From IMG/VR virus record IMGVR_UViG_3300032050_000278, positions 1 to 42,303 of that record: a stretch of 42,303 nucleotides of DNA; one strand, given 5' to 3'. Position 1 is the first letter of the stretch; the number at the start of each line of letters is the position of its first letter. This document shows positions 1 to 25,081 of this stretch, piece after piece. A program made the position numbers and the translations under genes. The notes under the pieces were generated by a model, which was given only the letters and a program-made list of their open reading frames with translations, searched no databases and was not told the origin of the DNA. This DNA is from a virus.

Positions 1-167
1 GTGCAACAATAGCAAACGAACATTACATTGCCTATGATGCACCTATTGGTTCTAATGATTCTGTTACTTGGACTATTGGTATGACTGTTGATGCAGCAGA
101 TGTTGTTACTGTTTATGCGTCTACAGCGAACTTGTCTGTTAATATCTTCGGAGCGGAGATTGCGTAA
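1..167 (+). CDS. Tail-fibre-associated adaptor protein, C-terminal part (5' end outside the window)
   Basis: The reading frame is open from the first base and ends in TAA at 165-167, one base into the next ATG. The visible 54 codons are the same as the C-terminal half of the complete 109-residue protein at 40918-41247, with one nucleotide difference (position 128). It is therefore a second copy, or a second allele, of that gene. The family is a small beta-rich protein often found next to phage tail fibres; its function is not established. The truncation is caused by the window edge. Confidence 0.85.
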   Translation, partial: ATIANEHYIAYDAPIGSNDSVTWTIGMTVDAADVVTVYASTANLSVNIFGAEIA

Positions 168-229
168 TGGGTGTTAAATCAGCAACGGCTTTTGGTTTAT
201 CTAGTGGTTTAGAACCTGGAATGGTTTTA
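1..229 (+). repeat. Near-identical copy of 41081-41309 (end-to-end repeat)
   Basis: By eye, bases 1-229 align without gaps to 41081-41309 with about four substitutions, then similarity collapses inside the following gene. The pairing either marks circular closure with two alleles or a duplicated cassette. Confidence 0.9.
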
Positions 230-715
230 CTGAATACGACTAGTTTTAGTGCAGTAAGTTCTCAATCTATAAATGATGTGTTTAGTGCAACTTATACAAA
301 TTATTTTATTTCATTAGAAACAGATGCCAGCGATGCAGACCAAGGTTTGAATATGCGTTTGAGAGTTTCTGGGTCAGATAATTCTTCAAATAATTATCGT
401 TGGTCTAATGGTTATGTTGTGACTGATGGTACTGCTTCTGTTACTGGTCAAAACAGTAATGGATTAGGAAATGCTTTTAGAATTGGTGCAGTAAGCAGTT
501 CTGCTAGAAATTTTGCAAAATTTGATTTATTTAATCCTTTTACTGCTGAAGAAACTGGTTTTTTAGGACAATTTTTTCAAAAATGGGGTGCTAATTCAAC
601 TACTCATTTTTCGGGTGGCATTATGTCTGTCACAACTTCTTATACAGGTTTTACTTTGATTCCAGGTGCAGGAACTATAACAGGAACTGTGAGTGTGTAT
701 GGCTACAACAAATAA
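167..715 (+). CDS. Putative variable tail-tip / receptor-binding domain protein (182 aa)
   Basis: The first 17 or so residues (starting MGVKSATAFGL) are shared with the 183-residue protein at 41247-41798, after which the two sequences diverge strongly. The C-terminus ends in VSVYGYNK, an ending shared with the proteins at 3015 and 41247 and close to the one at 2012 (VYGYKN). Sequence is rich in Ser, Thr, Asn and Gly, as expected for a beta-structured fibre tip. The start overlaps the stop of the preceding gene (TAATG), so translation is probably coupled. A conserved head with a variable body and conserved tail suggests host recognition; this is inference from layout, not a domain match. Confidence 0.7.
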   Translation: MGVKSATAFGLSSGLEPGMVLLNTTSFSAVSSQSINDVFSATYTNYFISLETDASDADQGLNMRLRVSGSDNSSNNYRWSNGYVVTDGTASVTGQNSNGLGNAFRIGAVSSSARNFAKFDLFNPFTAEETGFLGQFFQKWGANSTTHFSGGIMSVTTSYTGFTLIPGAGTITGTVSVYGYNK

Positions 716-744
716 AACCAAAAACAAATTCAAGGTGGTATTAA

Positions 745-1863
745 ATGGCTAAACAAGCGTACGTGTATTCTGGAACCGACTGGGTTCCGTTGGCTTCTGA
801 GGTTACTAACCTTTCAGGTTATCAGACTAAGGCATTGAACCAGTTTGCTCACAGAAATCTTATTATTAATGGTGATATGCAGATTGCACAGCGTTCATCT
901 TCTGTTGCTTCTATTACTACTGGTGGTTATATAACTGCTGATAGATGGGCTAGTACTGTTAACACATTAGGTACTTGGACACAATCTGTAGAAAACGATG
1001 CACCAACAGGTTCAGGTTTTCGTAAATCTTTAAAGATGCTTTGCACTACAGCAGATGCTTCACCTGCTGCTGCTGATGTACTTGGTATTTTTCAAAATAT
1101 AGAAGGTCAGAATCTTCAACACCTTAAAAAAGGTACTGCTGCAGCAGAACAATTAACTCTTTCTTTCTGGGTTAAATCAAACGTTACTGGTACATATATT
1201 GTTTACGCATACGATAATGATAATAATCGTCAAGTATCAAAATCATACACAATAAATGCTTCAGGAACTTGGGAATATAAAACAGTTACTTTTCCTGCTG
1301 ATACTACTGGTGTTTTAGATAATGATAATGCTTTATCTTTACAAATAAATTTTTCTTTAGGTGCTGGTTCTAATGAAACATCTGGAACTTTACAAACTAC
1401 TTGGGGAACTTATGTTGCTGCAAATAGTCGTGTTGGTCAAGTTAACCTTGCATCAGCAACCAGCAACTACTGGCAGGTTACTGGTGTTCAACTTGAGGTT
1501 GGTGATACTGCTACACCTTTTGAGTTTGAACCTATTAATGTAGAATTAAGTAAATGTTTTAGGTATTATCAAGAAATTCCAAGTATGGGAACTAGATACT
1601 TTGTTACAGGTTATCAAGAATCTGCATATCTTTTTGGACAATTGCAATTTTTAACAAGAATGAGAACAGATGCAACCATAACTGCCCCAGCCGCTAATAC
1701 ATTTGATATATGGGGAGTAGGTGCCCCTTCGAATATAAATGTTCAAGGAACAAATACTGATTATGCTTCTATTAGATTTGATAAAAGTGGATTAACTAAT
1801 TATTATTCTTATGTTCTTCAAGGCAACGGTTCTACATTCTGGAAGGTAAGTGCAGAGTTATAA
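745..1863 (+). CDS. Tail fibre protein with carbohydrate-binding-like body (372 aa)
   Basis: The N-terminus (MAKQAYVYSGTDWVPLASEV) is followed by an RNLIINGDMQIAQR stretch, typical of phage fibre and tail-spike proteins whose following region folds as a jelly-roll or carbohydrate-binding module. Residues of about 100-260 (TLSFWVKSNVTGTY onward, then WQVTGVQLEVGDTATPFEFEP) fit that class. A partial homologue starts at 41810. The first 165 or so residues are roughly three-quarters identical between the two by eye. Stop codon overlaps the next ATG (TAATG). Confidence 0.8.
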   Translation: MAKQAYVYSGTDWVPLASEVTNLSGYQTKALNQFAHRNLIINGDMQIAQRSSSVASITTGGYITADRWASTVNTLGTWTQSVENDAPTGSGFRKSLKMLCTTADASPAAADVLGIFQNIEGQNLQHLKKGTAAAEQLTLSFWVKSNVTGTYIVYAYDNDNNRQVSKSYTINASGTWEYKTVTFPADTTGVLDNDNALSLQINFSLGAGSNETSGTLQTTWGTYVAANSRVGQVNLASATSNYWQVTGVQLEVGDTATPFEFEPINVELSKCFRYYQEIPSMGTRYFVTGYQESAYLFGQLQFLTRMRTDATITAPAANTFDIWGVGAPSNINVQGTNTDYASIRFDKSGLTNYYSYVLQGNGSTFWKVSAEL

Positions 1864-2012
1864 TGTATAAAATATTAAATGTACCAACATCAGCGATGAT
1901 TTATCGTATATCTGATGAGGCTTGGATTCCATCAAATGAAGCAAACGCTGATTACCAAGCATATCTTGCTTGGGTAGCAGAAGGTAACGAAGCGGAAGAG
2001 GTTGAACAATAA
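1863..2012 (+). CDS. Small tail-fibre-linked protein, XkdW/fibre-assembly-like motif (49 aa)
   Basis: ATG at 1863 overlaps the TAA of the upstream fibre gene, and its own TAA overlaps the next ATG at 2012, so it is locked into the operon. The C-terminal half reads IPSNEANADYQAYLAWVAEG, a motif commonly seen near the end of phage tail-fibre or fibre-assembly proteins (asparagine, then DYQxYLAWxAEGN). A role as a small fibre chaperone or fibre-associated protein is inferred. Confidence 0.75.
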   Translation: MYKILNVPTSAMIYRISDEAWIPSNEANADYQAYLAWVAEGNEAEEVEQ

Positions 2013-3001
2013 TGGCAGCAGTACCAATATACGTATGGAACGGAACAGCCTGGCAAGAAACAGGACCAACCATCCCAGCAAACCCAATCAAATACCAAGC
2101 AAGTGCCCCATCCAGCCCCTCCACAGGGGATATTTGGGTTGATTCTGACGCTGATGTGACAACAGGTTCTCAACAGTTCCAACGTTTTCGTTTTGTGGCT
2201 TCTGGTGGTGAAACAACTATTTCTGGTGCTGATGCTAATGGTGCTGTTTTGGCTTACACAGCAGGTTTGGAGCAGGTTGTTTTGAATGGTGCTGTGCTTG
2301 TTCGTGGGTCTGATTATACAGCAACTAATGGTACAAGTATTACAGGTTTAAGTCCTGCACTGGTTGCAAGTGATGTGTTGGAAGTGTTTTCTTTTATTGC
2401 TTTCACTGTTGCTAATACTTACACACAGTCACAAGTTGATGGGTTGATTGCTGCTGCTCCTGGTATGAAACTTATTGTTCCTACTTCTGCAACTAACGGT
2501 ACTGTTGGTGCAACTGGTGCTGTTACTTTTACAGGTGTTACAAGTGTTTCATTAAACGGTTGTTTTAGTTCAACTTACGATTCATATAAAGTTTTAGTAG
2601 ATATAACTGCTTCTAGTGCAAGTTCTGATTTAAGTTTTAAGTATAGAACTGCAGGTACTGATTTAAGTGGTACTTACTATGGTGGCTTTACTGGATTAAA
2701 TCATTCTGGAACTGGAGTAACTTGGGCTATCAATAATAGTTCTGGTGCTAAAGTCGCTGAATTTAATACTTTTACTAAAAGAGCAGGATTTGTTGACTTA
2801 TCTTTATCTGGTCCATTTTTATCAGATACTAAAAGTGCTACTTGGAATGTTGTTTGCGTTCATACTTCAACTCAAACTGGTATGGGTGGTGCAGGTGGTG
2901 TTGGTTATGATACTGCAGGAAGTGCTAGTGATGGTATTTCTTTCATCAAATCTTCTGGAACTATGAATGGCACTATCCGTGTTTACGGTTACAAGAATTA
3001 A
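2012..3001 (+). CDS. Tail fibre protein with N-terminal attachment part and C-terminal tip domain (329 aa)
   Basis: Residues 1-60 (IYVWNGTAWQ, then a GDIWVDSDA motif) resemble fibre attachment segments; the same IWVDSDA/ELWVDSDA motif occurs at the end of the long fibre at 39142. Residues of about 60-150 (VLNGAVLVRGSDYTATNG) resemble the T7-type fibre N-terminal fold. From about residue 165 it carries the same kind of tip domain as the proteins at 167, 3015 and 41247 (GVTSVSLNGCFSSTYDSYKV), ending VYGYKN. It looks like a fusion of a fibre shaft and a tip domain that is separate elsewhere in this genome. Confidence 0.75.
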   Translation: MAAVPIYVWNGTAWQETGPTIPANPIKYQASAPSSPSTGDIWVDSDADVTTGSQQFQRFRFVASGGETTISGADANGAVLAYTAGLEQVVLNGAVLVRGSDYTATNGTSITGLSPALVASDVLEVFSFIAFTVANTYTQSQVDGLIAAAPGMKLIVPTSATNGTVGATGAVTFTGVTSVSLNGCFSSTYDSYKVLVDITASSASSDLSFKYRTAGTDLSGTYYGGFTGLNHSGTGVTWAINNSSGAKVAEFNTFTKRAGFVDLSLSGPFLSDTKSATWNVVCVHTSTQTGMGGAGGVGYDTAGSASDGISFIKSSGTMNGTIRVYGYKN

Positions 3002-3014
3002 AGGAGAACAATAA

Positions 3015-3590
3015 ATGACTAAGGCTCGTGATTTAGCAAACGGTGGATTCGGTTTAGTTCTTGTTAAACCTTCTTCTGTTGTGAATGGTACGGATAATGG
3101 TAAGGGTACTGTAAGTTTCAGTGCTGTTGGAAGTGTGTCATTAAACAATGTATTTAGTTCAACATATGATAACTATCGTATTATGATAACTATTTCAACT
3201 AGCAGTAACAATGATGGAAACCAATTTATCAGAATGAGAAATGCTGGTTCTGATAAATCAACAAATACTTATGTTTATTCAAGTTGGGTAAAAGCAGCAG
3301 CAGGAAGTGATATATCTTATACTAGTGGTACAGATTCACTTGTTAAACTTGGTGCACAAGACAACGTTGAAAAAGGTGGACAGTCATATTGTATAGATAT
3401 TGTTTCACCATTTTTAGCACAATTTACAAGAATGAATTGTAATGTAACTATGCAAAATGATGGTGGTGCTTGGGGTGGTGGTATAGTTTCAGGTTTACAA
3501 TTTGAAAATACAAGTTTTGATGGTTTTACTTTACATACACAAAACGGCACATTTACAGGAACAGTTTCAGTTTACGGTTACAACAAATAA
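3015..3590 (+). CDS. Putative tail-tip / receptor-binding domain protein (191 aa)
   Basis: A good ribosome site (AAAGGAG) lies ahead of ATG 3015. The protein opens MTKARDLANGG, a common start for small phage fibre proteins, followed by the tip domain shared with the 167, 2012 and 41247 proteins (VGSVSLNNVFSSTYDNYRI) and the ending VSVYGYNK. Probably part of the receptor-recognition set. Confidence 0.7.
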   Translation: MTKARDLANGGFGLVLVKPSSVVNGTDNGKGTVSFSAVGSVSLNNVFSSTYDNYRIMITISTSSNNDGNQFIRMRNAGSDKSTNTYVYSSWVKAAAGSDISYTSGTDSLVKLGAQDNVEKGGQSYCIDIVSPFLAQFTRMNCNVTMQNDGGAWGGGIVSGLQFENTSFDGFTLHTQNGTFTGTVSVYGYNK

Positions 3591-3605
3591 GATAAGGAAC
3601 ACCTA

Positions 3606-5591
3606 GTGGCTTTATCAAGCACAATCAGAACACTTCGTTCAAGAGATATAACAGACGCAATCCCATTCAACGTGGGACAACCATCTTATGTTTCTGACAT
3701 TTGGACAAACACAACTGTTGCATACGATGTTGCAATCGGTGGTCTACCATTCTTCTACGGCATCTCCAACGAGAGACCATACGAACGCCAGACTGCACCG
3801 TACAAAAAACAACAGTTTGATAACAGTAAAGAACCTGGTGAGCAAACACTTGAGGGTTGGTGGATTCGTTCCCAATCATCTTTTCATCGTGGTGCAGGTA
3901 TTACTTTCTTTGACCCTTCTGCTGGTGAAGAAGTTGAGTACCGTTTCTCAGACTCTGAAGGTATTGATGTTTGGACTAGAGGTCAGGTAACTCTTCTTAA
4001 GAAGGTTACAGCAGGGCACGCAACCACAACATCTTCACAGAAGATGCGTTCAATAAAGTATTCTAACACTAATGCTGTGCTTGCTTTGGATGGTCACGAT
4101 GTTGACAAACTTCTTGCAGATGGAACAGTTGTTCATTTCGTTGACTATAACTCTGGTTCAGATGACCCTGTTTATGCTATCTGTGATGATGGTGCAACAG
4201 CGTACTGGGCAACTAACGACATCAATGCTGGTACTAATAAGGCACACGTTTACAAAAAGGCTTTAACTTTAACTTCTGCTGATGCTGACACTTTAATGTT
4301 CAACATCAACTCATACACTTTTACTGAAGGTAAAGTTGCAATGGAATGGGTTAAAGGACGTATCATTCTTTGTGCAGATAACAAAGTTTACGAACTAACC
4401 CCTTCTACTTCATCTCTTCCTTCACCAATATTTACACACCCATCAACAGGTTACACTTTTACAAGTATCACCGAATCAGGTGCAGCAATCTATGTGGCAG
4501 GATACTCAGGTATCCAATCAGCGATTTACAAGTTTAGTTTAACAACTGCTGGTGCTATCACTTCGCTAACATCTGCTGTTGTGGCAGCCGAAATGCCTAT
4601 CGGTGAAATCATTCACAGCATCAAATACTATTTAGGTTATATGGTTATCGGAACATCTAAAGGTGTTCGTATAGCCCAGGTTTCTGTTGATGATGGTTCC
4701 ATTGCTTATGGTCCACTGATTTCTGAAACCGAACAACCTGTTTACGATTTCACTTTTAGGGACAGATATGTTTGGTTTACTTCTAAAGTTAATGGTAAGT
4801 CTGGTTTAACACGTATTGATTTGGCTGAACAAATCAGTCCTCTTCGTTTCGCTTACGCTCACGATGTGTTCACAGATGCCTCAACCAATACAACCACAGG
4901 TTGTGCTTTCATTGGGGACAGTGACCAGATTGCTTTCTCTGTTGCAAACAACTTTTTCTATGTTCAATCAGCCACAGACTTTGTAACTTCAGGTTATCTA
5001 AGAACAGGGTTCATTCGTTACGGAACATTAGAACCTAAGAACTTTAAACGTGTACGTGCACGAGGTGTTTATGATACTGGTGGTTTGTTAATCTCACCTG
5101 TTGGTCCAGATAACACAGTGTATGAAACAGCAATCTATAACTCTGTTATTGGTACACCAGAGGTTAACATTATTAACCCTCCTGGTTCACAAGAGTTTAT
5201 TGCTATGAAGTTTACTTTAAGTTTATATAAAGACCCAACTGATACAGGTTCAACATTGGACACTACTGGTCCAACATTTAAGGGTTATCAAGTTCGTGCA
5301 CTACCTGCAACACCAAGACAACATCTAATACAACTACCTTTGTATTGTTACGATGTTGAAACAGATAGGTACAATGTGCAGGTTGGTTACGATGGTCGTT
5401 CTTGGGAACGTATCCAAGCGTTAGAGGATTTGGAATCCACAGGTGATGAGGTTATCTTCCAGGATTTTACTACTGGTGAACAGATAACTGTTGTTATTGA
5501 TTCTGTTGGTTTCCAAAGAGCAACACCACCTTCTGGAGGTTTCTCTGGTTTTGGTGGCAATCTTACAGTTATAGTTAGGGAAGTTGGATAA
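3606..5591 (+). CDS. Large tail structural protein, probable tail stabilisation or hub protein (661 aa)
   Basis: GTG start with AAGGAA upstream. The N-terminus (LRSRDITDAIPFNVGQPSYV) continues into a region of repeated beta-strand segments spaced roughly 40-60 residues apart (for example AIYVAGYSG, MVIGTSKGVRIA and VWFTSKVNG), suggesting a beta-propeller-like body. The last 100 residues (YDVETDRYNVQVGYDGRSWERI) look like a tail-associated domain. Position after the fibres and before the lysis genes fits a tail tube or tail-needle component. The exact role is not clear. Confidence 0.6.
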   Translation: MALSSTIRTLRSRDITDAIPFNVGQPSYVSDIWTNTTVAYDVAIGGLPFFYGISNERPYERQTAPYKKQQFDNSKEPGEQTLEGWWIRSQSSFHRGAGITFFDPSAGEEVEYRFSDSEGIDVWTRGQVTLLKKVTAGHATTTSSQKMRSIKYSNTNAVLALDGHDVDKLLADGTVVHFVDYNSGSDDPVYAICDDGATAYWATNDINAGTNKAHVYKKALTLTSADADTLMFNINSYTFTEGKVAMEWVKGRIILCADNKVYELTPSTSSLPSPIFTHPSTGYTFTSITESGAAIYVAGYSGIQSAIYKFSLTTAGAITSLTSAVVAAEMPIGEIIHSIKYYLGYMVIGTSKGVRIAQVSVDDGSIAYGPLISETEQPVYDFTFRDRYVWFTSKVNGKSGLTRIDLAEQISPLRFAYAHDVFTDASTNTTTGCAFIGDSDQIAFSVANNFFYVQSATDFVTSGYLRTGFIRYGTLEPKNFKRVRARGVYDTGGLLISPVGPDNTVYETAIYNSVIGTPEVNIINPPGSQEFIAMKFTLSLYKDPTDTGSTLDTTGPTFKGYQVRALPATPRQHLIQLPLYCYDVETDRYNVQVGYDGRSWERIQALEDLESTGDEVIFQDFTTGEQITVVIDSVGFQRATPPSGGFSGFGGNLTVIVREVG

Positions 5592-5846
5592 ATGAAATTA
5601 AGTATTATTAAAGATGTAGTGTTTCGTTCTATTGCTTTGTTTTTAACAATGGCATTACCTGCTATTGGTGCTGGTGCTTTCGCTGGTGTCGAACCAGTTA
5701 ACTCTGCATTAATTGCTGGTGCCCTTGGTGTATCTAAGGTTATTACAGATTTAGCCAAAGCATTCTTAGATGATGGACAACTTACAAAAGAAGAAGTTGA
5801 TGCAATATTTAAGAAAGCCAACAAGAAATCTGAAGGCGGCAAATAA
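5592..5846 (+). CDS. Putative holin or small membrane protein (84 aa)
   Basis: ATG directly follows the upstream TAA. Residues 8-50 contain a hydrophobic stretch (IALFLTMALPAIGAGAFAG, then SALIAGALGVSKVI), and the C-terminus is charged (EEVDAIFKKANKKSEGGK). A small hydrophobic protein immediately ahead of a peptidoglycan hydrolase is the usual place for a holin. There are no conserved holin-family signatures I can name. Confidence 0.6.
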   Translation: MKLSIIKDVVFRSIALFLTMALPAIGAGAFAGVEPVNSALIAGALGVSKVITDLAKAFLDDGQLTKEEVDAIFKKANKKSEGGK

Positions 5847-5848
5847 GA

Positions 5849-6250
5849 ATGAGTTTACCAATTAAGAATGGTAAAATCACCACACCTTATAACAAAAAAG
5901 GTAATATGTGGAAATCAGGTTTTCATACTGGTGTCGACTTTGCAGTTCCTGAAGGAACAGAAATCATTGCAACTGTTGATGGAAAAGTTTTAGCCAACAA
6001 CTGGGGTAAAGCATATGGCACCCAACTGATTGTTGAATCTAAAATTGGTGATAAAAAAGTGTGGATGATTTACGCTCACCTTTCTAAATTATTAGTTAAA
6101 GTTGGTGACAAGGTTATCAAAGGACAAGCGATTGCTAAGTCTGGTAACACAGGTAATTCATCTGGTCCACATTTGCATTTCGAGGTTAGAGATAATGTTA
6201 GATGGTCTGCTGGTAAACCAGTTGACCCTAAAGAAGTCTTAGAAGCATAA
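5849..6250 (+). CDS. M23-family (LytM/lysostaphin-like) endopeptidase, endolysin (133 aa)
   Basis: Contains the zinc-metallopeptidase signature of family M23: H26-xxx-D30 (HTGVD), H77 in YAHLS and H108-x-H110 (HLHFE). The metal ligands and catalytic histidine all appear present. The protein is little more than the catalytic domain and has no obvious signal peptide or cell-wall-binding module. It would cleave peptide cross-bridges of peptidoglycan. The preceding gene is a holin candidate. The ribosome site is weak (AATAAGA). Confidence 0.9.
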   Translation: MSLPIKNGKITTPYNKKGNMWKSGFHTGVDFAVPEGTEIIATVDGKVLANNWGKAYGTQLIVESKIGDKKVWMIYAHLSKLLVKVGDKVIKGQAIAKSGNTGNSSGPHLHFEVRDNVRWSAGKPVDPKEVLEA

Positions 6251-7330
6251 TTGTTTAGCCGCTTCATAGCGGTAGTAACAATTGGGGTGTTAACTACTTT
6301 AATAGCATCACCATCTTATTCAGATGATGTGACAATTAATCTTGACCAATCAACACCTTATGTTGACATACCAGTAACTGTTACTGAACCAGTTGATGCA
6401 ACTATCAGTACTGTTACTGGTACACCTCAAACTAATCCTGGGTTTATTGATTCTTGGATTGAAGTGTGGCAGGGTTTAAATAAACTTCGTGCAGATGATG
6501 ACAGTGCTCATAGTGCTAGCAATGTGTTAGCATCCATCATCAATATGCCTTTGCAAGTTGGTGAATACTTTATTCGTGCAACATCCTTTGCTTATATGTG
6601 TTGCAATGCACGTCCTGCTGGTACTTATTTATTGTCTACTAACTTAACAGTAGCCATACCTTCACCAACACCATCACAGATATCCCCAACACCGACAGTG
6701 TCGCCAGAGCCAACGCCATCAGAAAGTGTGACTCCTTCACCTAGTCCAACCCCAACTCAGACTTCATCTTCGCCAACTCCTGAGCCAACGCCTGAGCCTT
6801 CTTTTCCTTCTCCGTCACCGTCTGATATTCCTGTGCCATCAGAATCTCCAGAGGTTCCAGTTGGTCCAGTTCCAGAGCCAGACGAGCCAGACCTTGAACC
6901 TTTTGTAGAGTTAGTAGAGCCCTTTGAACTTCCGTCTCCAGATGTTCAAGATACTTTAGAAGAAGTTGTTGATTCGTCATTTAACGATTTCCCTTCTTCT
7001 TTGGAGAACGACTTACCTTCATTGGAAGAGACTTTACCCATTGACGAAACTGAATCTCTTTTTGAATTTCTTCCAGAGTTTTCACTAGAAGCATTGCAAG
7101 AAACGTTCCAACAAATATCTGAAACCATAACTGCTGCATTTGAATCCGTTCCTGGTGGTGAGCAAGTACTTGCCGCCGCCGAGTTTGTAGGGGAGCAATT
7201 CACTGCTGCCGCAGAGTTTGCTACCAATCTTGGTACCGAGTTTACACCTGAAGAGCGCGAACAGGCTCAGCAGGTAATTCTTGGTGCTGTAATCGTAACA
7301 CAATTAGCATCCCCTAGGAGGATAAAGTAA
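6251..7330 (+). CDS. Secreted or anchored proline-rich acidic protein of unknown function (359 aa)
   Basis: TTG start immediately after the previous TAA. Residues 1-25 form a signal peptide (RFIAVVTIGVLTTLIASPSYS). Residues of about 26-130 are a beta-rich globular part with a CC pair (MCCNARPAGTYLL). Residues of about 135-220 form a Pro/Thr/Ser linker (repeats of the type PSPTPTQT and PEPTPEPS) that turns acidic (EPDEPDLEPFVE). The C-terminus is alpha-helical (EEREQAQQVILGAVIVTQLA). This architecture is typical of secreted actinobacterial wall proteins, so host origin or wall interaction is possible. No known lysis family is recognised. Confidence 0.75.
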   Translation: MFSRFIAVVTIGVLTTLIASPSYSDDVTINLDQSTPYVDIPVTVTEPVDATISTVTGTPQTNPGFIDSWIEVWQGLNKLRADDDSAHSASNVLASIINMPLQVGEYFIRATSFAYMCCNARPAGTYLLSTNLTVAIPSPTPSQISPTPTVSPEPTPSESVTPSPSPTPTQTSSSPTPEPTPEPSFPSPSPSDIPVPSESPEVPVGPVPEPDEPDLEPFVELVEPFELPSPDVQDTLEEVVDSSFNDFPSSLENDLPSLEETLPIDETESLFEFLPEFSLEALQETFQQISETITAAFESVPGGEQVLAAAEFVGEQFTAAAEFATNLGTEFTPEEREQAQQVILGAVIVTQLASPRRIK

Positions 7331-8180: not shown

Positions 8181-8408
8181 TTACTGATACGTTTCTTTTA
8201 TTACTTGTTCTCTTGATTTGTTTGCATAGTTTAACCAATGTGATTTAAATGATTCGTTGCGAGTTTCTTTTTCTTTATCAAACTCTTCACCATTTAGTTT
8301 ACTGATTTCACTTGGCATGAAATAAGAAAAGTATAAGGGTATCTTTTTGGAAACAATTCTATTAGTGTTCCAGAAAGGATAAGGTTTCTTATCTATTGTC
8401 TTTTCCAA
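8181..8408 (-). CDS. Hypothetical protein (75 aa)
   Basis: TTG start at 8408 overlapping the upstream gene by 16 bases. Lys/Glu-rich with aromatic residues (YPFWNTN, YFSYFMP, SHWLNY); no recognised motif. It is the terminal gene of the leftward block and ends 10 bases from the shared terminator. A later start cannot be excluded. Confidence 0.6.
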   Translation of the reverse strand: MEKTIDKKPYPFWNTNRIVSKKIPLYFSYFMPSEISKLNGEEFDKEKETRNESFKSHWLNYANKSREQVIKETYQ

Positions 8409-8881
8409 TTCTCTACAGGGTTAAGTAAATCTTTGTGAATCATTCTACCATACTGCATCTGTGTTCCCTTTTCCCAACCTTCTGCTGCTGGTATCCATCC
8501 AAGTATTTCTACTTCACGGAACTCTTTAGGTACAGGTATAACACCGAAGATTATTAAACCTTCTTTTTTTAAATCTTTTTCTCTAACTGCTGGACCATCT
8601 TGTGTTCTAACTCTACGAACTTCAATGTTAGTACCAACATCTGCTAAGTCTTTGTACTTTGCATGGTCTGCGCCTTTCCAAATGCTTGCTGACCAATACT
8701 CGTTGATGGCTTTGGCTACCGCAAGTTCACCTATTGCTGCGGCAACTTGTGCTGTTCTGTTATCTTCCATCTTCTTTGGGTCGTAGTGTGGTGCATCAGG
8801 TTTACCCCAATTGTTTGTATATCTTCTGATACCGATAGTACTTGCGTATTCGTATTCCCATGACTCTAATTTAATTATCAT
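8393..8881 (-). CDS. Hypothetical protein, possible PD-(D/E)XK-type nuclease fold (162 aa)
   Basis: The segment AAIGELAVAKAINEYW followed about 20 residues later by YKDLADVGTNIEVRRVRT resembles a restriction-endonuclease-like core (Glu, Asp, then E-x-R in place of the usual E-x-K). That match is weak and is inference only. The C-terminus has GWIPAAEGWEKG. ATG start overlaps the neighbouring gene by 11 bases. Confidence 0.7.
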   Translation of the reverse strand: MIIKLESWEYEYASTIGIRRYTNNWGKPDAPHYDPKKMEDNRTAQVAAAIGELAVAKAINEYWSASIWKGADHAKYKDLADVGTNIEVRRVRTQDGPAVREKDLKKEGLIIFGVIPVPKEFREVEILGWIPAAEGWEKGTQMQYGRMIHKDLLNPVENWKRQ

Positions 8882-9179
8882 TATTCTCCAAGTAGTCTTC
8901 TTCGGGTAAACAGTTCCAACAAAATCCTTCGTATAATCCTTCTTCTTCCTGACAGAGGGTACAAGGTGGGAAAGGTTCTCTATCTAAAGGTGTTGCTGGT
9001 GTTACTAACGAACCGCATTGTCTACACTCGGCGTCTTCTAAACCGTATGCCGAAGGCATGTATCCAATTTCGTCAAACATTACTGACATACGAAACCAAT
9101 TACTATTACAATTAGGGCACGTTGGTGTTGGTATGCCACGGTAGTCGTACTTGTTTTTATTCTTGGGTTTGTTCGGCAT
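8871..9179 (-). CDS. Zinc-ribbon protein with four Cys pairs (102 aa)
   Basis: I chose the ATG at 9179 (MPNKPKNKNKYDYRG) because the longer reading frame would run deep into the sigma-like gene. CPNC, CRQC, CTLC and CWNC pairs are spread along the protein and could form two zinc ribbons. The N-terminus is basic. It overlaps the end of the sigma-like gene by 23 bases. It may bind nucleic acid or RNA polymerase, but no family is recognised. Confidence 0.75.
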   Translation of the reverse strand: MPNKPKNKNKYDYRGIPTPTCPNCNSNWFRMSVMFDEIGYMPSAYGLEDAECRQCGSLVTPATPLDREPFPPCTLCQEEEGLYEGFCWNCLPEEDYLENNDN

Positions 9180-9810
9180 CTTGACTTTTCTTGTAATCAT
9201 TGTCAACGAATGGTCGAGGTCCACCTAGTTCATCTATGAGTGCTTTCATAGCCCTGTCTACACGTTTACGTGCAGCATCAGCACTTATCTTTAACTCATT
9301 ACCGACATCTTCTAGAGATGTTGATAAGGAACCAAATCTAAGTCTTAAAACATTTTGATGACGTTCATCAATTGATTCGTATGCTTGGGATATGTCTGCT
9401 CTCACAGCCAACCACGTGTTGCCTTCCGAGACAACACTTCTGTTTGGTCTGTAGTTAACATCGTTAACACCTATTGGTATAAAATATGATTCAGTTAAAA
9501 TGTATGGAAGGAACTCTTCAATAATTGCTGGTTCATAATAGAATAAGTCTTGCACTTCGTAGCCAATAACTTTTGCTTTTTCTTTTGTGCAATACTTTTG
9601 TGCAGCGTTACGAAGTGAACGATTAATTAACTTGTTTTTATCTTTCTCGGAATGGTTTGTTTCCCATTCGTTTAACTTGTTGTTGTGGGTTATAAACCAA
9701 ACCCATAGTTCTTGCTTGATGTCGTCGGCGTCTAGCATCTGATATCTTTTGCTATATTCGTATGAGATGTGAGTTACTAGACCACCGTAGTTGTCTAAAT
9801 AATGTTGCAC
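9157..9810 (-). CDS. RNA polymerase sigma-factor-like protein (217 aa)
   Basis: GTG start with AAAGGGA upstream. Residues of about 14-45 (YEYSKRYQMLDADDIKQELW) match sigma region 2, and residues of about 160-192 (LEDVGNELKISADAARKRVD) form a region-4-type helix-turn-helix with the usual preceding RHQNVLRLRFG. The total length suits an ECF-like factor. It would redirect host polymerase to phage promoters, presumably the late block. An alternative is a sigma-like regulator without promoter specificity of its own. Confidence 0.8.
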   Translation of the reverse strand: MQHYLDNYGGLVTHISYEYSKRYQMLDADDIKQELWVWFITHNNKLNEWETNHSEKDKNKLINRSLRNAAQKYCTKEKAKVIGYEVQDLFYYEPAIIEEFLPYILTESYFIPIGVNDVNYRPNRSVVSEGNTWLAVRADISQAYESIDERHQNVLRLRFGSLSTSLEDVGNELKISADAARKRVDRAMKALIDELGGPRPFVDNDYKKSQDAEQTQE

Positions 9811-9834
9811 TATGTCCCTTTATGGGTTTTGATT

Positions 9835-10146
9835 TTAGTCTTCCTGACTAGGAACTCCATGCCATTTGCCTCGGAGTACCATAAGGGCAATTGCTGAATA
9901 GTTTAACAGGTCTATAAAGGAATCTTCTATAGGCTCATTCTTTGGCGTGTCTTTTGTTTCATATATTAGGTGATTAAGTCTGGCTATCTTGTCATGCATT
10001 CGTACAAGAAGCCCATTTAAAGCCCCTCCAGGGGCACTAGCAATGTTTTTAGGACCGTAGTCTAGTTGCTTCTTGACTAACAGTTCCCATGCTTCATTGT
10101 ATATTGCAATAGATTCGAACTTAAAGTTCTCAATATCATAATCCAT
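9835..10146 (-). CDS. Nmad1/DUF1599-like nucleotide-modification-associated protein (103 aa)
   Basis: Start set at 10146 because AAGGAG lies 7 bases upstream; the stop of the preceding gene overlaps. The motif YGPKNIA, then GLLVRMHDKIARLNHL and EDSFIDLLNYSAIALMVLRG, is the pattern of the DUF1599 (Nmad1) family, often found in phages with nucleotide metabolism genes. The exact reaction is unknown. No companion thymidylate or hypermodification gene is seen in the window. Confidence 0.75.
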   Translation of the reverse strand: MDYDIENFKFESIAIYNEAWELLVKKQLDYGPKNIASAPGGALNGLLVRMHDKIARLNHLIYETKDTPKNEPIEDSFIDLLNYSAIALMVLRGKWHGVPSQED

Positions 10147-10477
10147 CCATGAACTCCTTAAGGTCGTTATCAAAATCTGCTGTTGATATTAGGGTAACGT
10201 ATTCTTGCATCCTGTCATTGGCTTCTTTAGTGCTACCTGCCTGCACCCATGAGCCAATGATGTCTAACATTACTAAGGCTTCTTCTTGCTTTCCTTCTTT
10301 AACTGTGTAATAAATATCAGCCAACATTCTGAATATTGGTATCGGACCTGTTGTTGAATTAAGTTGTGCTGCTGCTAATGGTTTATCTTCAAACTGTTCG
10401 TAAATAGATTCATTAGATTTCCAAGACTGCTTTAATCTTGTCATTAATGTACTGTGCTCCATATTTCTGAAAGACAC
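10136..10477 (-). CDS. Hypothetical protein (up to 113 aa)
   Basis: Begins with GTG at 10477, inside the end of the primase-TOPRIM gene; ATG at 10462 or 10444 are alternatives. The sequence is mostly helical (NSTTGPIPIFRMLADIYYTV, then EEALVMLDIIGSWVQAG). No motif recognised. It overlaps the next gene by 11 bases. Confidence 0.65.
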   Translation of the reverse strand: MSFRNMEHSTLMTRLKQSWKSNESIYEQFEDKPLAAAQLNSTTGPIPIFRMLADIYYTVKEGKQEEALVMLDIIGSWVQAGSTKEANDRMQEYVTLISTADFDNDLKEFMDGL

Positions 10478-11042
10478 TGTTTACATCCTCTCCTAGTGGC
10501 ATCTGCAAGATGCGCGTTGTGTTTAAACTTCTTTGTATTCTTTTGCCAAACTCCATGCCAGCATCGTCACCGTCTGCTAAGACAATGACTGTATCGAAAT
10601 CTTCGAATACTCTTGGATAAAATTTCTTCCAAGACGTCGCACCTGGCGCACCAACCGTCGGGTGCGATGTCGTCGCAGCCATAGTTATTGTATCCATTTC
10701 ACCCTCACAGATACATACATATTGTTTTGCTTTAAACAATGCTTCAACATTGTATAAAGTTGTTTCCGCCGAAGGTAAACCTAAATACTTAGGTTCTTCT
10801 CCGTTTAGTGAGCGGAATCGGATATCAACTACACCACTTCTTGTGATGTATGGAATTGAAAGTCGTCCTTGATATTGTTCATGACTCGGTAGTGGGTCTT
10901 CCACGACGCCCAGGTGGAACTGATTTGCTGCCTCCTGAGATAGTCCTCTCTCTGCCAAATAAGGTAACGCTTTTTCTACTGTCGTAGCGTACTGATGTGC
11001 TGCCTTGATTAAGAATTGTTTCTGCGATGGTGAGAGCCTCAC
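10413..11042 (-). CDS. DNA primase, TOPRIM catalytic part (209 aa)
   Basis: TOPRIM motifs are clear: VCICEGEMDTITM (E113, E115) and VIVLADGDDAG (D157, D159, D160). Upstream, YLAERGLSQEAANQFHLG is the typical linker seen in DnaG/phage primases between the zinc and TOPRIM parts. The frame can start at GTG 11042, preceded by AAGGGG at 9 bases, inside the zinc-finger gene. It overlaps that gene by 164 bases in another frame. Together the two halves equal one primase. Confidence 0.85.
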   Translation of the reverse strand: MRLSPSQKQFLIKAAHQYATTVEKALPYLAERGLSQEAANQFHLGVVEDPLPSHEQYQGRLSIPYITRSGVVDIRFRSLNGEEPKYLGLPSAETTLYNVEALFKAKQYVCICEGEMDTITMAATTSHPTVGAPGATSWKKFYPRVFEDFDTVIVLADGDDAGMEFGKRIQRSLNTTRILQMPLGEDVNSVFQKYGAQYINDKIKAVLEI

Positions 11043-11265
11043 GAAATGTTACCCCTTCTTGTTGTTGAATAATATTATATGCACTGCCTTTAACGTCGCA
11101 AGCAAAACATACAAACGTGTTGTCGTCAAAGTTTACTAAACCTGAGCGAATTGAATCATCATGAAAACAACAACGCATACTACTTTTACCCCACTGACGT
11201 GATGGTACCTTGCCGCCGTAATGTTTTAGTATTGGTCCAATAGGTGGGTTTTCAACACTAGCCAT
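10879..11265 (-). CDS. DNA primase, zinc-binding (CHC2-type) part (128 aa)
   Basis: Start set at ATG 11265 with AGGA 7 bases upstream. The zinc site is a C-xx-H then C-xx-C arrangement (CCFHDD, then FVCFACDVKG), the CHC2 primase finger. After the conserved FREALTIAETIL the remaining tail is Arg/Ser/Gly-rich and looks out of frame, while the other frame (next gene) continues as a normal primase linker. Either a +1 frameshift joins the halves or two subunits are made. Confidence 0.8.
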   Translation of the reverse strand: MASVENPPIGPILKHYGGKVPSRQWGKSSMRCCFHDDSIRSGLVNFDDNTFVCFACDVKGSAYNIIQQQEGVTFREALTIAETILNQGSTSVRYDSRKSVTLFGRERTISGGSKSVPPGRRGRPTTES

Positions 11266-11602
11266 CAATATATCCTGCATCTTTTAACAGATACATATAC
11301 ATCCAGAATGGCATTGAAGCATACCATTCGCTGACATCAGTTGTTCCCTTACGTTTATGAATCACTGCACCTGTCTCAGCGTTAGCGTTCTCTACTTCTA
11401 CTTTTAATTCTTCCATCCACTGACCAAGTGTCATAGTCTTATGGTTCTTTACTTCAAGTACCACATCAAATATTCCTGAGATGTCACCTTTATCTAGTGC
11501 ACCTGTTAGTGCACGTCTTTCAGCAGGTATCTTCCACTTATCTTTAAGATAATTTACTACAGCAGTTTCAGCAGATGTTCCTTTTTGCTTTGACTTACTC
11601 AT
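11258..11602 (-). CDS. Holliday-junction-resolvase-like PD-(D/E)XK nuclease (114 aa)
   Basis: ATG at 11602 is preceded by GGGAAG. The core pattern GTSAE (E12), RR at 29-30, KGDISG (D40), FDVVLEVKN (D46, E50, K52) is that of phage Hjc/archaeal-type resolvases and related VRR-like nucleases. It probably resolves branched DNA during replication or before packaging. It sits between a DNA helicase-like ATPase and primase. Confidence 0.8.
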   Translation of the reverse strand: MSKSKQKGTSAETAVVNYLKDKWKIPAERRALTGALDKGDISGIFDVVLEVKNHKTMTLGQWMEELKVEVENANAETGAVIHKRKGTTDVSEWYASMPFWMYMYLLKDAGYIDG

Positions 11603-11747
11603 CTTCTTCCCACTCTTTACCATCTAGGGACATACATTGACTGCATAGTATTGCCCAACCATAGGCTACTTGCCCACCGTCCATGCCGCAACGTTCACAT
11701 CTGACTACAACATAGCCAGAATCGTTCTCATTCTCCAGTGGTAACAT
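11595..11747 (-). CDS. Small zinc-ribbon protein (50 aa)
   Basis: ATG 11747 lies inside the end of the ATPase gene (20-base overlap), and the stop overlaps the start of the resolvase-like gene by 8 bases. Two Cys pairs are visible (RCERCG and LCSQCM), 14 residues apart, which makes a compact zinc ribbon. The tail is acidic (GKEWEEDE). The ribosome site is weak, so translation may be coupled. Function unknown. Confidence 0.65.
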   Translation of the reverse strand: MLPLENENDSGYVVVRCERCGMDGGQVAYGWAILCSQCMSLDGKEWEEDE

Positions 11748-12522
11748 CTTTTAACTGCATGCATGCTGGGTCAAATGAAAGCATCGTGAAAGTTCTACCT
11801 GTTGAATCTGCTCTACCATATCTATTCTTAACAGCAGCCACACACAGATAATTTCTTTCCCCTACTTCTTGTTGTCCGATAGTAAGAATTAGTGCAGGGA
11901 TTTGGTTAACCATACCTTGTACAGCAGACCTTGGTTGACAAGGTGTTGCGTCAAAAGATTCCTTTGTATGATGCAAGATAAGTACACAAGCATTAGTGTC
12001 GCGTGCTAAATACTTTAACTCTTTCATTGCAGCACGCATACCTGAGAACTCTTCCATACCATCCATTGCAATATCCATAAGGTTATCTACCACTATAAGA
12101 GTTGGGCTACATCCCCATACTGTTTCAAATGCTTGAACAGATTCATCAATGTCCGACAAGGTAGGACTAGAATCAAAACTCCATTTAATATTTTCAAACT
12201 GTCTTAGTAAAGATTCTGCTTTATCTTTTTCAAACTTTAAAATGTTTTCTGCTTGTGCTTGGCTAACACCTGTTGCCATTGAGTACACACGCATACCCAT
12301 GGTATGCGCATTGGTATCAGCAGAAATATAAAGTGTTGGTACTTGTGCTTGTACTGCTACTGCTAAAGCAATAGAAGATTTACCAGCACCAGGTGCACCT
12401 GCAACAAGATTTAATTCTGCTCTTCTAAAAACTATTTCGTTGGCTTGGAGACTTTTGAAAGCGGCGGGGAGTGGTTCCCCGCCTACTTCCTTCGCTCCGA
12501 TAGCCCTGTAAAGGGTTCTCAT
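11728..12522 (-). CDS. DnaB/RecA-like replicative helicase ATPase (264 aa)
   Basis: Walker A GAPGAGKS at residues 42-49 and Walker B LIVVDN at 142-147, then VLILHHTKES and QEVGERNYL, in the order of the RecA/DnaB core. It has only the ATPase core and lacks the N-terminal DnaB domain, as in phage 'RepA-like' helicases. Start overlaps the previous stop (TAATG). With the primase genes downstream it likely forms the replisome core. Confidence 0.85.
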   Translation of the reverse strand: MRTLYRAIGAKEVGGEPLPAAFKSLQANEIVFRRAELNLVAGAPGAGKSSIALAVAVQAQVPTLYISADTNAHTMGMRVYSMATGVSQAQAENILKFEKDKAESLLRQFENIKWSFDSSPTLSDIDESVQAFETVWGCSPTLIVVDNLMDIAMDGMEEFSGMRAAMKELKYLARDTNACVLILHHTKESFDATPCQPRSAVQGMVNQIPALILTIGQQEVGERNYLCVAAVKNRYGRADSTGRTFTMLSFDPACMQLKDVTTGE

Positions 12523-12965
12523 TACTTCGCTTTAGCCATCTTCTCTGGAACATATGAGTTCCAGTCTGGCTCAGTTTTCTTTAGATAAATTGTTTTACAT
12601 TTATCTGTTGCGCCTTGGGGTGCTGCACAGAAAAATCCTTTGTATACCCCATATTGCCCTTGACCCTGAATTGCTGACATCTTCCCATGTAAGCAATGAC
12701 GAGTAGGTGCATCACCAGTTGTTGTCATAGACGTTGCACCAAGTGAGGCTATCGCATAATCAATGTTGTTAGTTGGATTAGCCACGACTTGTGCAGGTTT
12801 ACTTAAACCTACTGCTTCAGCGAACGCTTCTAAAGTCCCGACGAAGGTTTCAGAAGTAACTGCTGATGTAATTAATGTTTCAACTTCTTCTGTAGTATCA
12901 CCACGGAATAGTGGGATAGTTCCATTAGGTAGTTTGAAACTTACCTGTATTTTTGATTCAGACAT
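12522..12965 (-). CDS. Putative DNA-metabolism protein with C-terminal zinc-like Cys/His motif (147 aa)
   Basis: Residues of about 100-130 show RHCLHGKMSAIQGQG, then GFFCAAPQGATDKCK: a C-x-H...C...C arrangement often seen at the end of small actinophage proteins near recombination genes. The N-terminal half is a beta-strand region (IQVSFKLPNGTIPLF). It lies between Cas4-like nuclease and helicase. A single-strand-binding role is possible but is inference only. Confidence 0.7.
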   Translation of the reverse strand: MSESKIQVSFKLPNGTIPLFRGDTTEEVETLITSAVTSETFVGTLEAFAEAVGLSKPAQVVANPTNNIDYAIASLGATSMTTTGDAPTRHCLHGKMSAIQGQGQYGVYKGFFCAAPQGATDKCKTIYLKKTEPDWNSYVPEKMAKAK

Positions 12966-12971
12966 TTTGTC

Positions 12972-13607
12972 TTAGTCCTTATCTGTTTTGTTAAACCATT
13001 CGCAATGCTTAGTGTAACCGCATATTGAACAGTGGTTGATGTTTGGAAGAAAGTTACCTTGCTTCCTTTGACGGTCAAACTTATCCGCCAAATCTAATAC
13101 CCTCTCTTTCGAGAAGAAATCTAATGATACTGGTTCAGTTGGTTCACCTTTACGTGCCATCCAATAAGAACCATACTTAGGTCTAACACCATAGATTAAC
13201 TCAACACCTACAGCATAGAAACCTAATTGTAAAAATGTGCTTGGGGTTCTGGACCCAGTCTTGACGTCCAGAACCACAAGGTCCCCATTAGGTAATTCCA
13301 TAACTCTATCAAGTGTCATCTTAATAGAGAAGTTCTTATGTTGTACGTTCATATAAAGTTCTATAGCAGGTTCATTAGTTGGTGTTGTCCACACTTTCCA
13401 ATCACTTGTTGCTCTCCACTTTTGATATGACTTAAACATTTCAAAACCATTAGTGAACCACCAGTCTTTATCTTCAGGTGATTTTGATTTTGCTTTAGCA
13501 GAACGAAAAGGTTGATTCATTCCATCTGCACCTAGGCGTTGAACAAAGTCATCACCTGTTGCAGACCAAGCCTTCTTCCAATATTCGAAAGACTTATCAA
13601 CGTCCAT
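12972..13607 (-). CDS. Cas4/RecB-type nuclease, catalytic and C-terminal cluster part (211 aa)
   Basis: Motifs in order: E83 (AIELYM), D100 (MTLDR), D114-x-K116 (VVLDVKTG) and the QLGFYA helix at 127-132, which together make a complete RecB-family PD-(D/E)XK site. The end carries three cysteines, C193, C196 and C202 (CSICGYTKHC), as in Cas4-like Fe-S nucleases. The fourth cysteine expected at the N-terminus is found in the preceding 67-residue gene, which overlaps by 11 bases. The pair looks like one nuclease split in two. Confidence 0.85.
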   Translation of the reverse strand: MDVDKSFEYWKKAWSATGDDFVQRLGADGMNQPFRSAKAKSKSPEDKDWWFTNGFEMFKSYQKWRATSDWKVWTTPTNEPAIELYMNVQHKNFSIKMTLDRVMELPNGDLVVLDVKTGSRTPSTFLQLGFYAVGVELIYGVRPKYGSYWMARKGEPTEPVSLDFFSKERVLDLADKFDRQRKQGNFLPNINHCSICGYTKHCEWFNKTDKD

Positions 13608-13800
13608 TTATATTCCACTCATCTTTGTCCCAGTTCTCGGTGGCCTGATGAACAGCAACACCACCGTAGAGCCACCATGCTGGTGTCTCTTTCAATTGTT
13701 TAACACGTGATAAGTAATACAACCATCCACAATTTAGATAGTCAGTAAGACTTGAGTAGGAGATATGTTGAGGAACTTCTTCCCCATCAATCGTCACCAT
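13597..13800 (-). CDS. Cas4/RecB-type nuclease, N-terminal part (67 aa)
   Basis: SYSSLTDYLNCGWLYYLSRV is the standard opening of Cas4/AddB-like nucleases, with C24 as the lone N-terminal cluster cysteine, followed by GGVAVHQATENW (H51, the first active-site motif). The protein stops abruptly, and the next gene begins in another frame 11 bases earlier. The ribosome site before ATG 13800 is not obvious. Either a genuine two-piece gene or a frameshift in the sequence. Confidence 0.75.
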   Translation of the reverse strand: MVTIDGEEVPQHISYSSLTDYLNCGWLYYLSRVKQLKETPAWWLYGGVAVHQATENWDKDEWNINGR

Positions 13801-13888
13801 ATGGGTGTGGCGAGCGCAGGTGAAAGGAGGATATAAAGCCCACGCTCACCACTTGTATAGTCAGCCTCGCCAGAAACTGACTCACATT

Positions 13889-14671
13889 TTATTTCTTGCT
13901 TATTGAAAAACGGATATCCGTTTTCGTTTTGTTTGTTGTACATAGTCCACAAGTGTAGCACGCACCACCGTCTTTTGATATCAACGGAATTTGGCGTGTT
14001 TGCTCAGGACATTTAGCACCAGGCTTACCTGTTAACGCTCTGACCTGCAACGATGCCTCTTCAAAAGTGTCAGCCAACCATGCTAACTTGACATCATAGT
14101 CTTGGCGTAAACGCTTAGCCTCATCCACGTTGTCTTTGTCAGCCGAGAAATATAAACTAAGATTCTTAATCCCAGTTAACATCTCTACTGCACTAGGTAC
14201 CCTTGTGTACACCCAAAACTGTACGTCTTTGTTATGTTTAATAACTCGTCGCCATGCTTTTGTGTAATCTTCTGAAAAGAAATCACCATCCCAATGTATA
14301 CGAAATAGTTTTTCAGCATTGTACTTGTCGCAGTCATACTTGAAATCCTGAATCATAAACTGAATCATTTGTTGTAATTCGTTTACAGATTTATTTTGTA
14401 CAGCATCCCAATTAGCAAGCAACAATTCTCTGGTGCCTTTGAATATTTTTTCTAACTTACCTGCATAACATATCTTTTCGCAGACTGATGTAGCACCTGG
14501 ACAAGAAAATGATTTGCCAGATGGAAGACCAAAAGTATTTGCTACTAATGGTCTTTTGCCATCTGGCATAGTTATTGTTGCAGTTTTCCTATCGTTGTTG
14601 CGTCTCAGTCTGGGTAGACTAGAAGTCAACCTCAATACTTTCTTCTGAGTATGAATCATCATTGCCAGCAT
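13889..14671 (-). CDS. GP88-like protein of actinophages (up to 260 aa)
   Basis: The cysteine-rich segment FSCPGATSVCEKICYAGK, the HWDGDFFSEDYTKAW stretch and the CYTCGLC motif near the end fit the 'Gene product 88' family of mycobacteriophages; the biochemical role is unknown. The cysteines could bind a metal or cluster. The ATG at 14671 gives a 53-base overlap with the upstream gene; later starts (ATG 14662, 14659) or a TTG are possible. Confidence 0.75.
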   Translation of the reverse strand: MLAMMIHTQKKVLRLTSSLPRLRRNNDRKTATITMPDGKRPLVANTFGLPSGKSFSCPGATSVCEKICYAGKLEKIFKGTRELLLANWDAVQNKSVNELQQMIQFMIQDFKYDCDKYNAEKLFRIHWDGDFFSEDYTKAWRRVIKHNKDVQFWVYTRVPSAVEMLTGIKNLSLYFSADKDNVDEAKRLRQDYDVKLAWLADTFEEASLQVRALTGKPGAKCPEQTRQIPLISKDGGACYTCGLCTTNKTKTDIRFSISKK

Positions 14672-15182
14672 CTATCTGACTTTCAAGATTGCCAACTGCT
14701 GACTCAACTATTTCTCTTGCTTCATCTTCTGATTCAGCCTGAACAGTGAATGAGTAAGTGATAGTTACACGACCTTCGAACTCTTGTTTCAATAGGTCTG
14801 CACCTATGTCACCAAGTAACTCGTTGGCTTCATCACGATGAACAGTTATCTCATCTTCGTTACCATCGAACTGGTCTTTGAAGAAGGTATGAACTGTTGT
14901 TCTTAACGCATAGATTTGGTCACGGTAACCTCTACCGCGAACTTCTTCTGCTTCAAGGTCCGACTTCAATGTATCTATTTGTTTCTGTATTGCATCGAAC
15001 GGTGTGACCGTTGCGATTATTGATTCTTCTTCTGACATTTGTATTTCTCCTTTGTTGAGTGTGCCCTTACCCTTGCAGGTAGGGCACACGATGTTAAACA
15101 TTAATACTTGGGGAACAATCCCCAAGCCCTTACAATCAGGACACCATACTTCTGTTTCAGGATATGGAGTTTCATATCTCAT
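14619..15182 (-). CDS. Zinc-motif (DnaJ-like CxxCxGxG) protein with internal start, Glu-rich (187 aa)
   Basis: Residues 14-40 have two CxxCxGxG motifs (CPDCKGLG and CPTCKGKG), as in the DnaJ zinc domain. Residues 49-187 are acidic and helical (SEEESIIATVTPFDAIQKQI onward). A strong AAGGAG followed by ATG at 15038 lies in frame at residue 49, so a shorter 139-residue product starting MSEEES is likely made too. Start ATG 15182 overlaps the previous stop (ATGA). Confidence 0.75.
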   Translation of the reverse strand: MRYETPYPETEVWCPDCKGLGIVPQVLMFNIVCPTCKGKGTLNKGEIQMSEEESIIATVTPFDAIQKQIDTLKSDLEAEEVRGRGYRDQIYALRTTVHTFFKDQFDGNEDEITVHRDEANELLGDIGADLLKQEFEGRVTITYSFTVQAESEDEAREIVESAVGNLESQIDAGNDDSYSEESIEVDF

Positions 15183-16192: not shown

Positions 16193-16201
16193 ACATTCTC
16201 C

Positions 16202-16654
16202 TTATAGATATCTTGATACTGAAGCGTAAGTTGCTGTTGAAACAACATCTTCATCAGACAACTCAAGCATGCGAATAGCATTAGTTAAGTCAGCAACAAT
16301 GTCGTCATAGTCGTTGCTCACATAATGTCTGCCATTACCACGACCACCTCTGTAAGGAGGCGTTGGTTCTGTTGGCTCTTCTGGCAATTTAGCGTTATCA
16401 ACTTTTACTGTTATCTCAAACACAGTAATAGTGTCATCAGACTGCCACCTGCTTTTAGTCACACTAGTAACTAAGTCAAGATTCTTTAGAGCAATCTTCT
16501 TAATTGCTCCCTCGTAATCTTTCCAATTAGTTTTATGTGTTTCAACTGCTTTCTCGTAAAGTGATTGGTTCAAACACACTTCACTTAGTTTTTCTTTCAA
16601 GGCTGTCACAAGTTTATCTTTAGACACCTTGATATTTATTCCTTTACTTGCCAT
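16202..16654 (-). CDS. Hypothetical protein (150 aa)
   Basis: AAAGGAG precedes ATG 16654. The N-terminal half is basic and helical, the middle has a Pro/Gly/Arg linker (PTEPTPPYRGGRGNGRHYV), and the last 40 residues are acidic helix (NDYDDIVADLTNAIRMLELS). It lies 9 bases ahead of the DUF932 gene, so they are likely expressed together. No known family. Confidence 0.75.
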   Translation of the reverse strand: MASKGINIKVSKDKLVTALKEKLSEVCLNQSLYEKAVETHKTNWKDYEGAIKKIALKNLDLVTSVTKSRWQSDDTITVFEITVKVDNAKLPEEPTEPTPPYRGGRGNGRHYVSNDYDDIVADLTNAIRMLELSDEDVVSTATYASVSRYL

Positions 16655-16684
16655 GTTTGTTTCTCCTTTTGTTTTTGTTTTTTA

Positions 16685-20215: not shown

Positions 20216-20362
20216 GCCAAGACCAATTGGTTGGTTGCAGTCTTGTCAAATCATGTAGTTGATTATAACAATTTGGTGCAAGTTTTTCCCGTTTTTGGAA
20301 AAAGTTCTCCAAATCGTTATAATCATTGATTTGACGAGCAAGACCAGCCAATTAGGCTTGGC
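20216..20362. repeat. Long imperfect inverted repeat (147 bp) in noncoding DNA
   Basis: GCCAAG...AATTGG...TGTCAAATCA on the left (from 20216) reappears reversed on the right (TGATTTGACG...CCAATTAGGCTTGGC, ending 20362). The core pairs GATTATAACAATTTGG (20261-20276) with CCAAATCGTTATAATC (20309-20324), one mismatch, closing on TTTTTCC / GGAAAAA around 20283-20303. Could be an origin, a cruciform operator or a structured RNA. Confidence 0.8.
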
Positions 20363-21287: not shown

Positions 21288-21333
21288 AAATTGTTGTCCG
21301 CTTTTGTATTTTGGACGGATTAGTATATAGTGA

Positions 21334-23350: not shown

Positions 23351-23358
23351 GAGTTTGA

Positions 23359-25080: not shown

Positions 25081-25081
25081 A

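Follow-up and report, generated by a model that had tools for sequence, protein, structure and literature searches.

Gene content of the locus spanning the two window ends

The sequence analysed in the current work (henceforth "the window") is the complete virus record IMGVR_UViG_3300032050_000278, which comprises 42,303 bp and has a G+C content of 39%. When it is read across its two ends, the window presents a single row of genes in the order A-B-C-D-E, followed by C (its 3' part)-D-E-F-G-H-I. The versions of D and E present at the left and right end are designated allele L and allele R, respectively. The features of this row are listed below in reading order.

38259–39149, + strand: gene A, conserved 296-aa protein forming the upstream bound of the cassette (phrog_7578)
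39142–40908, + strand: gene B, tail-fibre-like protein of 588 aa containing internal repeats
40918–41247, + strand: gene C, complete copy, 109-aa conserved protein
41247–41798, + strand: gene D, allele R, tip protein of 183 aa (modelled with pLDDT 88.8)
41810–42303, + strand: gene E, allele R, initial 164 aa, with the contig ending ahead of the hypervariable C-terminus
1–127, + strand: exact 127-nt copy of 41081–41207 (3' half of gene C), probable assembly-graph fork at the contig start
3–170, + strand: gene C, 3' part, on the allele L side, reading ...ATIANEHYIAYDAPIG...FGAEIA*
167–715, + strand: gene D, allele L, 182-aa tip protein with a conserved head of ~20 aa and a predicted beta-sandwich body
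745–1863, + strand: gene E, allele L, 372-aa fibre with an anchor (aa 1-24), a conserved middle (to ~265) and a hypervariable C-terminus (266-370)
1863–2012, + strand: gene F, small 49-aa ORF after the fibre, missing or replaced in some relatives
2012–3001, + strand: gene G, conserved N-terminal part (aa 1-145) and variable D-type body (aa 171-329)
3015–3590, + strand: gene H, anchor (aa 1-35) and variable D-type body
3606–5591, + strand: gene I, conserved structural protein of 661 aa at the other bound of the cassette, with a middle part (aa 131-480) that is also variable in some relatives

The products of B, E and G were assigned by PHROG to tail fibres and that of H to minor tail proteins. 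The 182- and 183-aa D proteins have two further paralogues in the window, namely the C-terminus of the product of 2012–3001 and the entire product of 3015–3590, and D, the end of G and H form one domain family. An AlphaFold2 model of D allele R (pLDDT 88.8) predicts an all-beta domain from residue ~18 onwards, preceded by a disordered head. The best PDB neighbours of this modelled body, as retrieved with VIA-align, are the C-terminal beta-sandwiches of GH32 enzymes (Z 9.7, rmsd 3.1, 125 aligned), followed by galectins (Z 7.8), with low Foldseek TM-scores of 0.3-0.46, and the model suggests that the D body likely belongs to the galectin-like beta-sandwich fold class. Domains with a similar prediction are frequent among uncultured tailed phages (129 matches at E<=0.001). 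Sequence-profile matches of the D body to the PDB were confined to antibody chains at E>0.01 and were judged to be chance. Taken together, position, fold and family names point to a putative receptor-binding role of the cassette proteins, and the cassette may influence host range.

A second contig, L005, is 99.9-100% identical over its positions 1-7041 to window positions 33398–40532. It is without 89 nt (window ~34419–34507), which shifts the frame in the gene at 33563–34690, and differs by a short indel close to the gene B start.

Similarity and divergence of the two window ends

The first-pass annotation had reported that positions 1–229 and 41081–41309 are nearly identical, and this was reproduced at 97.8% identity with five mismatches (at 128, 199, 200, 219 and 229). 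The similarity is composed of an exact match between 1–127 and 41081–41207, one mismatch and a second exact run of 70 nt (129–198), such that the ends agree at 197 of their first 198 nt, after which the alignment collapses inside gene D. The mismatch at 128/41208 is synonymous (GCG/GCA, Ala). Chance is excluded for the end match, because the window has no long direct DNA repeats other than these end-to-end pairs; the only other repeat family is of 33 nt and intergenic. The two copies of the latter (20263–20295 and 21273–21305, 76% identical) lie between divergently transcribed gene blocks and are possibly regulatory.

The resemblance noted earlier between the proteins encoded further inward was likewise recovered. 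The two D proteins are alike at their heads (18 of the first 21 residues identical) and tails (both end in SVYGYNK), with bodies that agree at 53 of 158 residues (34%), and the fibres starting at 745 and 41810 have residues 1-24 in common, 46 nt being identical at their starts (743–788/41808–41853). Position 1223, previously taken as the cassette boundary, does not mark one: the likeness runs out at the contig end (equivalent to ~1232). Assembly error as the source of the allele differences was considered and is unlikely, given an amino acid identity of 34% with the reading frames open.

Synonymous (dS) and nonsynonymous (dN) divergence between the window ends was determined for each segment by means of Nei-Gojobori counts, yielding a dS of 0.03 and a dN of 0 for the end of gene C, 0.80 and 0.79 for the body of gene D, and 0.42 and 0.06 for the first 40 codons of gene E. 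The earlier proposal that selection acts on the body of the tip protein is not borne out by this comparison, in which the body has a dS (0.80) close to its dN (0.79), as opposed to a dS of 0.03 just upstream. Since silent sites have diverged as much as nonsynonymous ones, selected point changes from the recent ancestor of the flank cannot account for the body, which was replaced en bloc in an exchange between old alleles. With an amino acid identity of 34%, a dN/dS of ~1 is near saturation and does not argue for positive selection. The tip protein is, moreover, not the only variable part of the locus, which contains about five such bodies in all.

Compared over ~490 nt from their starts, the E alleles show 82.2% identity, and allele R is thereby no closer to allele L than are the E genes of other contigs (L020, 83.7%; L033, 82.9%; L006, 82.7%; L019, 82.5%). 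Searches of IMG/VR for relatives of the D body returned, for allele L, one match at 43% and three at 32% only, and none for allele R.

A probable circular genome with two alleles of one cassette

A usual largest k for metaSPAdes is 127. Contigs that metaSPAdes or MEGAHIT break at a fork carry end sequences whose length is exactly that of the largest k-mer (maxK) (PMC10914622). Because the exact end match of 127 nt equals the overlap length of metaSPAdes at k=127, base 1 of the window is most likely an assembly-graph fork, and we infer that the record was assembled with metaSPAdes at this k. As a control, other true contig ends that match an internal stretch exactly were collected from retrieved viral contigs, and 4 of 64 had a run of exactly 127 nt; this value is tied for the commonest, 114 nt also being seen 4 times, and the excess at 127 nt is modest. 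A terminal-repeat control on six relatives of ~40 kb, in which a near-terminal match of 126 nt was present in the contig of L019, one of 22 nt in another and none in the rest, is not clean as a control.

The A-to-I locus is spanned in six relatives (L006, L007, L012, L013, L014 and L019), of which L012-L014 are near-identical, leaving 4 independent genotypes, and is partly covered in L011, L020, L033, L047 and L050. One C-D-E unit is present in all six spanning relatives and in every partial one, in the order A-B-C-D-E-(F)-G-H-I. The distance from the start of A to the start of I is 6279-6823 bp in the spanning relatives, and the window, when closed at 41080/1, predicts 6427 bp. Since the relatives carry a single copy at the spacing that the closed circle predicts, the window ends are read as two alleles of one locus, not as a tandem duplication. 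On these sequence comparisons, the window very probably represents a single phage genome of ~41,080 bp that is circular (or circularly permuted), with the window ends corresponding to two alleles of one host-recognition cassette coexisting in the sample. A short-read assembler would have started at the fork just inside gene C, taken allele L round the circle and, on passing gene C again, exited into allele R of this D-E locus. An exact search for the continuation of allele R with the last 41 nt of the window gave no match.

The first-pass annotation had left the choice between a circular genome of ~41.08 kb with two alleles and a genuine tandem duplication; the former is supported by the 127-nt fork, the single copy in relatives and the spacing, and the latter is disfavoured. 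In a duplication, two C-D-E units would stand in series in one genome and the contig would end inside the repeat, which would likewise generate a fork of length k, and paralogous D-type domains do stand in tandem in this locus (D, G, H). Every close relative, however, has one unit at single-copy spacing, and a recent duplication should have left the bodies as alike as the flanks, whereas dS amounts to 0.03 in the flank and 0.80 in the body. Two gene-C homologues do occur in some distant relatives, for example L112, L113 and L034, yet the second homologue there is old (28% identical) and is no 98% copy, so that a duplication in the window is improbable. In L112, L113, L034 and record G005 the two homologues lie ~1 kb apart or near the two ends of the record, one being 63-65% and the other 28-33% identical; these pairs are an old duplication of the C unit.

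Allele R could also derive from a different phage, the last ~1.1 kb of the contig (41208–42303) having been joined through an identical stretch of gene C. Assemblers are able to walk through shared regions, and E allele R is as distant from allele L as from the E genes of other genomes, but gene C is only 74-94% identical at the amino acid level between close relatives, against 197/198 nt at the window ends. As the end match exceeds the gene C identity between relatives, the donor of such a chimera must belong to the same population or be a very recent recombinant, upon which this explanation merges with that of two alleles; a chimera in the strict sense is very unlikely. Programmed variation, by which a diversity-generating retroelement or a silent cassette/inversion switch would produce the second version, is extremely improbable. 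Such systems act in tip proteins, where the variable body indeed resides, but no 16-mer of either D body recurs elsewhere in the window on either strand, leaving no template repeat and no stored copy, and the differences in D fall on every codon position, accompanied by indels and by saturation at synonymous sites. Neither a reverse transcriptase nor a site-specific recombinase was seen among the scanned window proteins (not every small ORF being covered).

With two coexisting alleles as the preferred explanation, an assembly fork would have caught both versions of one locus within a single contig, while such hypervariable loci for host recognition are usually deduced from reduced read recruitment. 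A match of exactly k bases between the ends, beyond which the sequences diverge, may serve to recognise contigs of this type, which should be called circular, not linear or duplicated.

Conserved heads and variable bodies across the locus

The relatives of the window form a natural series that separates the fixed stretches from the swapped ones. A conserved head combined with a variable body was observed in D, E, G, H and, in part, I in five relatives. In comparison with L006, whose gene A is 98% identical at the nucleotide level, D is 97% identical over its first 20 codons and 49% over the remainder; the corresponding values are 97-99% for E 1-45 versus 44% for E 266-372, 92-94% for G 1-145 versus 55% for G 171-329, 94% for H 1-35 versus 52% for H 36-191, and 91% for I 1-130 versus 55% for I 131-480. 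The head of D is not kept in L019, L033 and L012 (58-67%). Over genome pairs, the median dS is 0.30-0.48 for the heads of E, G, H and I, 0.89 for the capsid gene and 0.67 for gene A, a comparison that is suggestive only, the pairs being non-independent and short heads possibly being constrained by translation.

In two natural chimeras, L012 and L047, the E slot contains the usual E head (MAKQAYVYSGTDWVPLASEVTNLS) fused to a D-type body, and the D slot of L020 is occupied by an unrelated glycine-rich protein. The core of L020 is 98.6% identical to that of L012 over 5.8 kb with the cassette replaced, and its E gene is 97.1% identical to that of L019 over 826 nt, against only ~84% between the L019 and L020 cores. 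The L012, L047 and L020 genomes are recombinant at the cassette locus. Each cassette gene in this phage group consists of a conserved head (anchor) and a replaceable body. Lineages would trade bodies through recombination within the conserved parts, presumably along a homologous recombination route, such that lectin-like receptor-binding domains would be swapped and attachment to the virion left unchanged. A more tentative extension, which we rate at somewhat below even chances, is that the conserved gene heads serve as exchange points, their DNA being kept alike between lineages, and that the tip slots are refilled independently from a group-wide pool of lectin-like bodies. D-type bodies cluster by slot more than shuffled labels do; their tree is poorly resolved, with 1 of 23 inner branches well supported, too few to trace movement of bodies between slots D, G and H.

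The locus lies within tail-fibre and receptor-binding genes (B, E, G and H by PHROG assignment, D through membership of the H/G body family) and is sharply more variable than its flanks among similar genomes, as in L006, where gene A at 98% nucleotide identity contrasts with a D body at 49%. It is accordingly classed, on sequence grounds, as a putative host-recognition island of a known kind, the variability of which is real.

Small ORFs of 49-73 aa, of at least two types, follow the receptor genes (window 1863–2012; L006 8855–9070; L012 13728–13940 and 14534–14755) and are gained or lost between relatives; they could help the preceding fibre to assemble. In addition, L012 and L013 show 99.9% identity over 18 kb, and their tail fibre genes B are set apart by one in-frame repeat unit of 66 nt, resulting in variation of shaft length.

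Comparison with known systems

Among cultured phages, the closest relatives found are LanE43-AprE7 and LanE43-AprF5 of Planktophila (E7 and F5; OX376640, OX376641), with identities to the window of 53% for the terminase, 60% for the capsid protein, 47% for A, 53% for C and 47-53% for I, the synteny of these core genes being kept. Because the closest cultured relatives found infect Planktophila, the host of the window phage is probably a freshwater actinobacterium. E7 and F5 possess two variable islands, of which the second comprises part of a tail fibre, two collagen-like and three further proteins, and is described as hypervariable and possibly related to host recognition (PMC10202952). This second island is syntenic to the present locus, its gene content fitting the interval between the A and I homologues (E7 21565–28271), including a gene C homologue (53%). 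The two systems differ in that the core proteins are only 47-60% identical, and in that the D slots of E7 hold glycine-rich and short beta proteins, for which the D-body profile gave no match at E<=1e-3. E7 and F5, which share a host strain, are ~97% alike over the A-to-I interval and differ at the other island, which fits a role of the interval in host choice but does not prove it. A whiB-like gene is said to be in all members of the E7/F5 family (PMC10202952); none was seen among the Pfam-scanned window proteins, several small ORFs lying outside the scan.

The metaviromic islands of marine phages (Mizuno et al. 2014, PMC3909814) were described as under-recruiting regions inside genes for tail fibres, lectin-like proteins and C1q. 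They resemble the present locus in their conserved N-terminus and variable C-terminus, and differ from it in having been inferred from read recruitment, while here two alleles were caught in one contig. Phage receptor-binding domains have been found to be interchangeable on different N-termini (Smug et al. 2023, PMC10684548), as is the case here, with the difference that exchange here is between adjacent slots of one locus in close relatives (L012, L047). Streptomyces phages of the Beephvirinae (e.g. WRightOn, Manuelvirus) carry homologues of A and I at 33-43%; they are distant, and cassette genes D-H were not detectably in common in the searches made.

A 1748-aa protein encoded at window positions 25782–31028 occupies the position of the 8-kb variable island of E7/F5 (E7 8372–16922), and is probably a second variable locus of this phage group.
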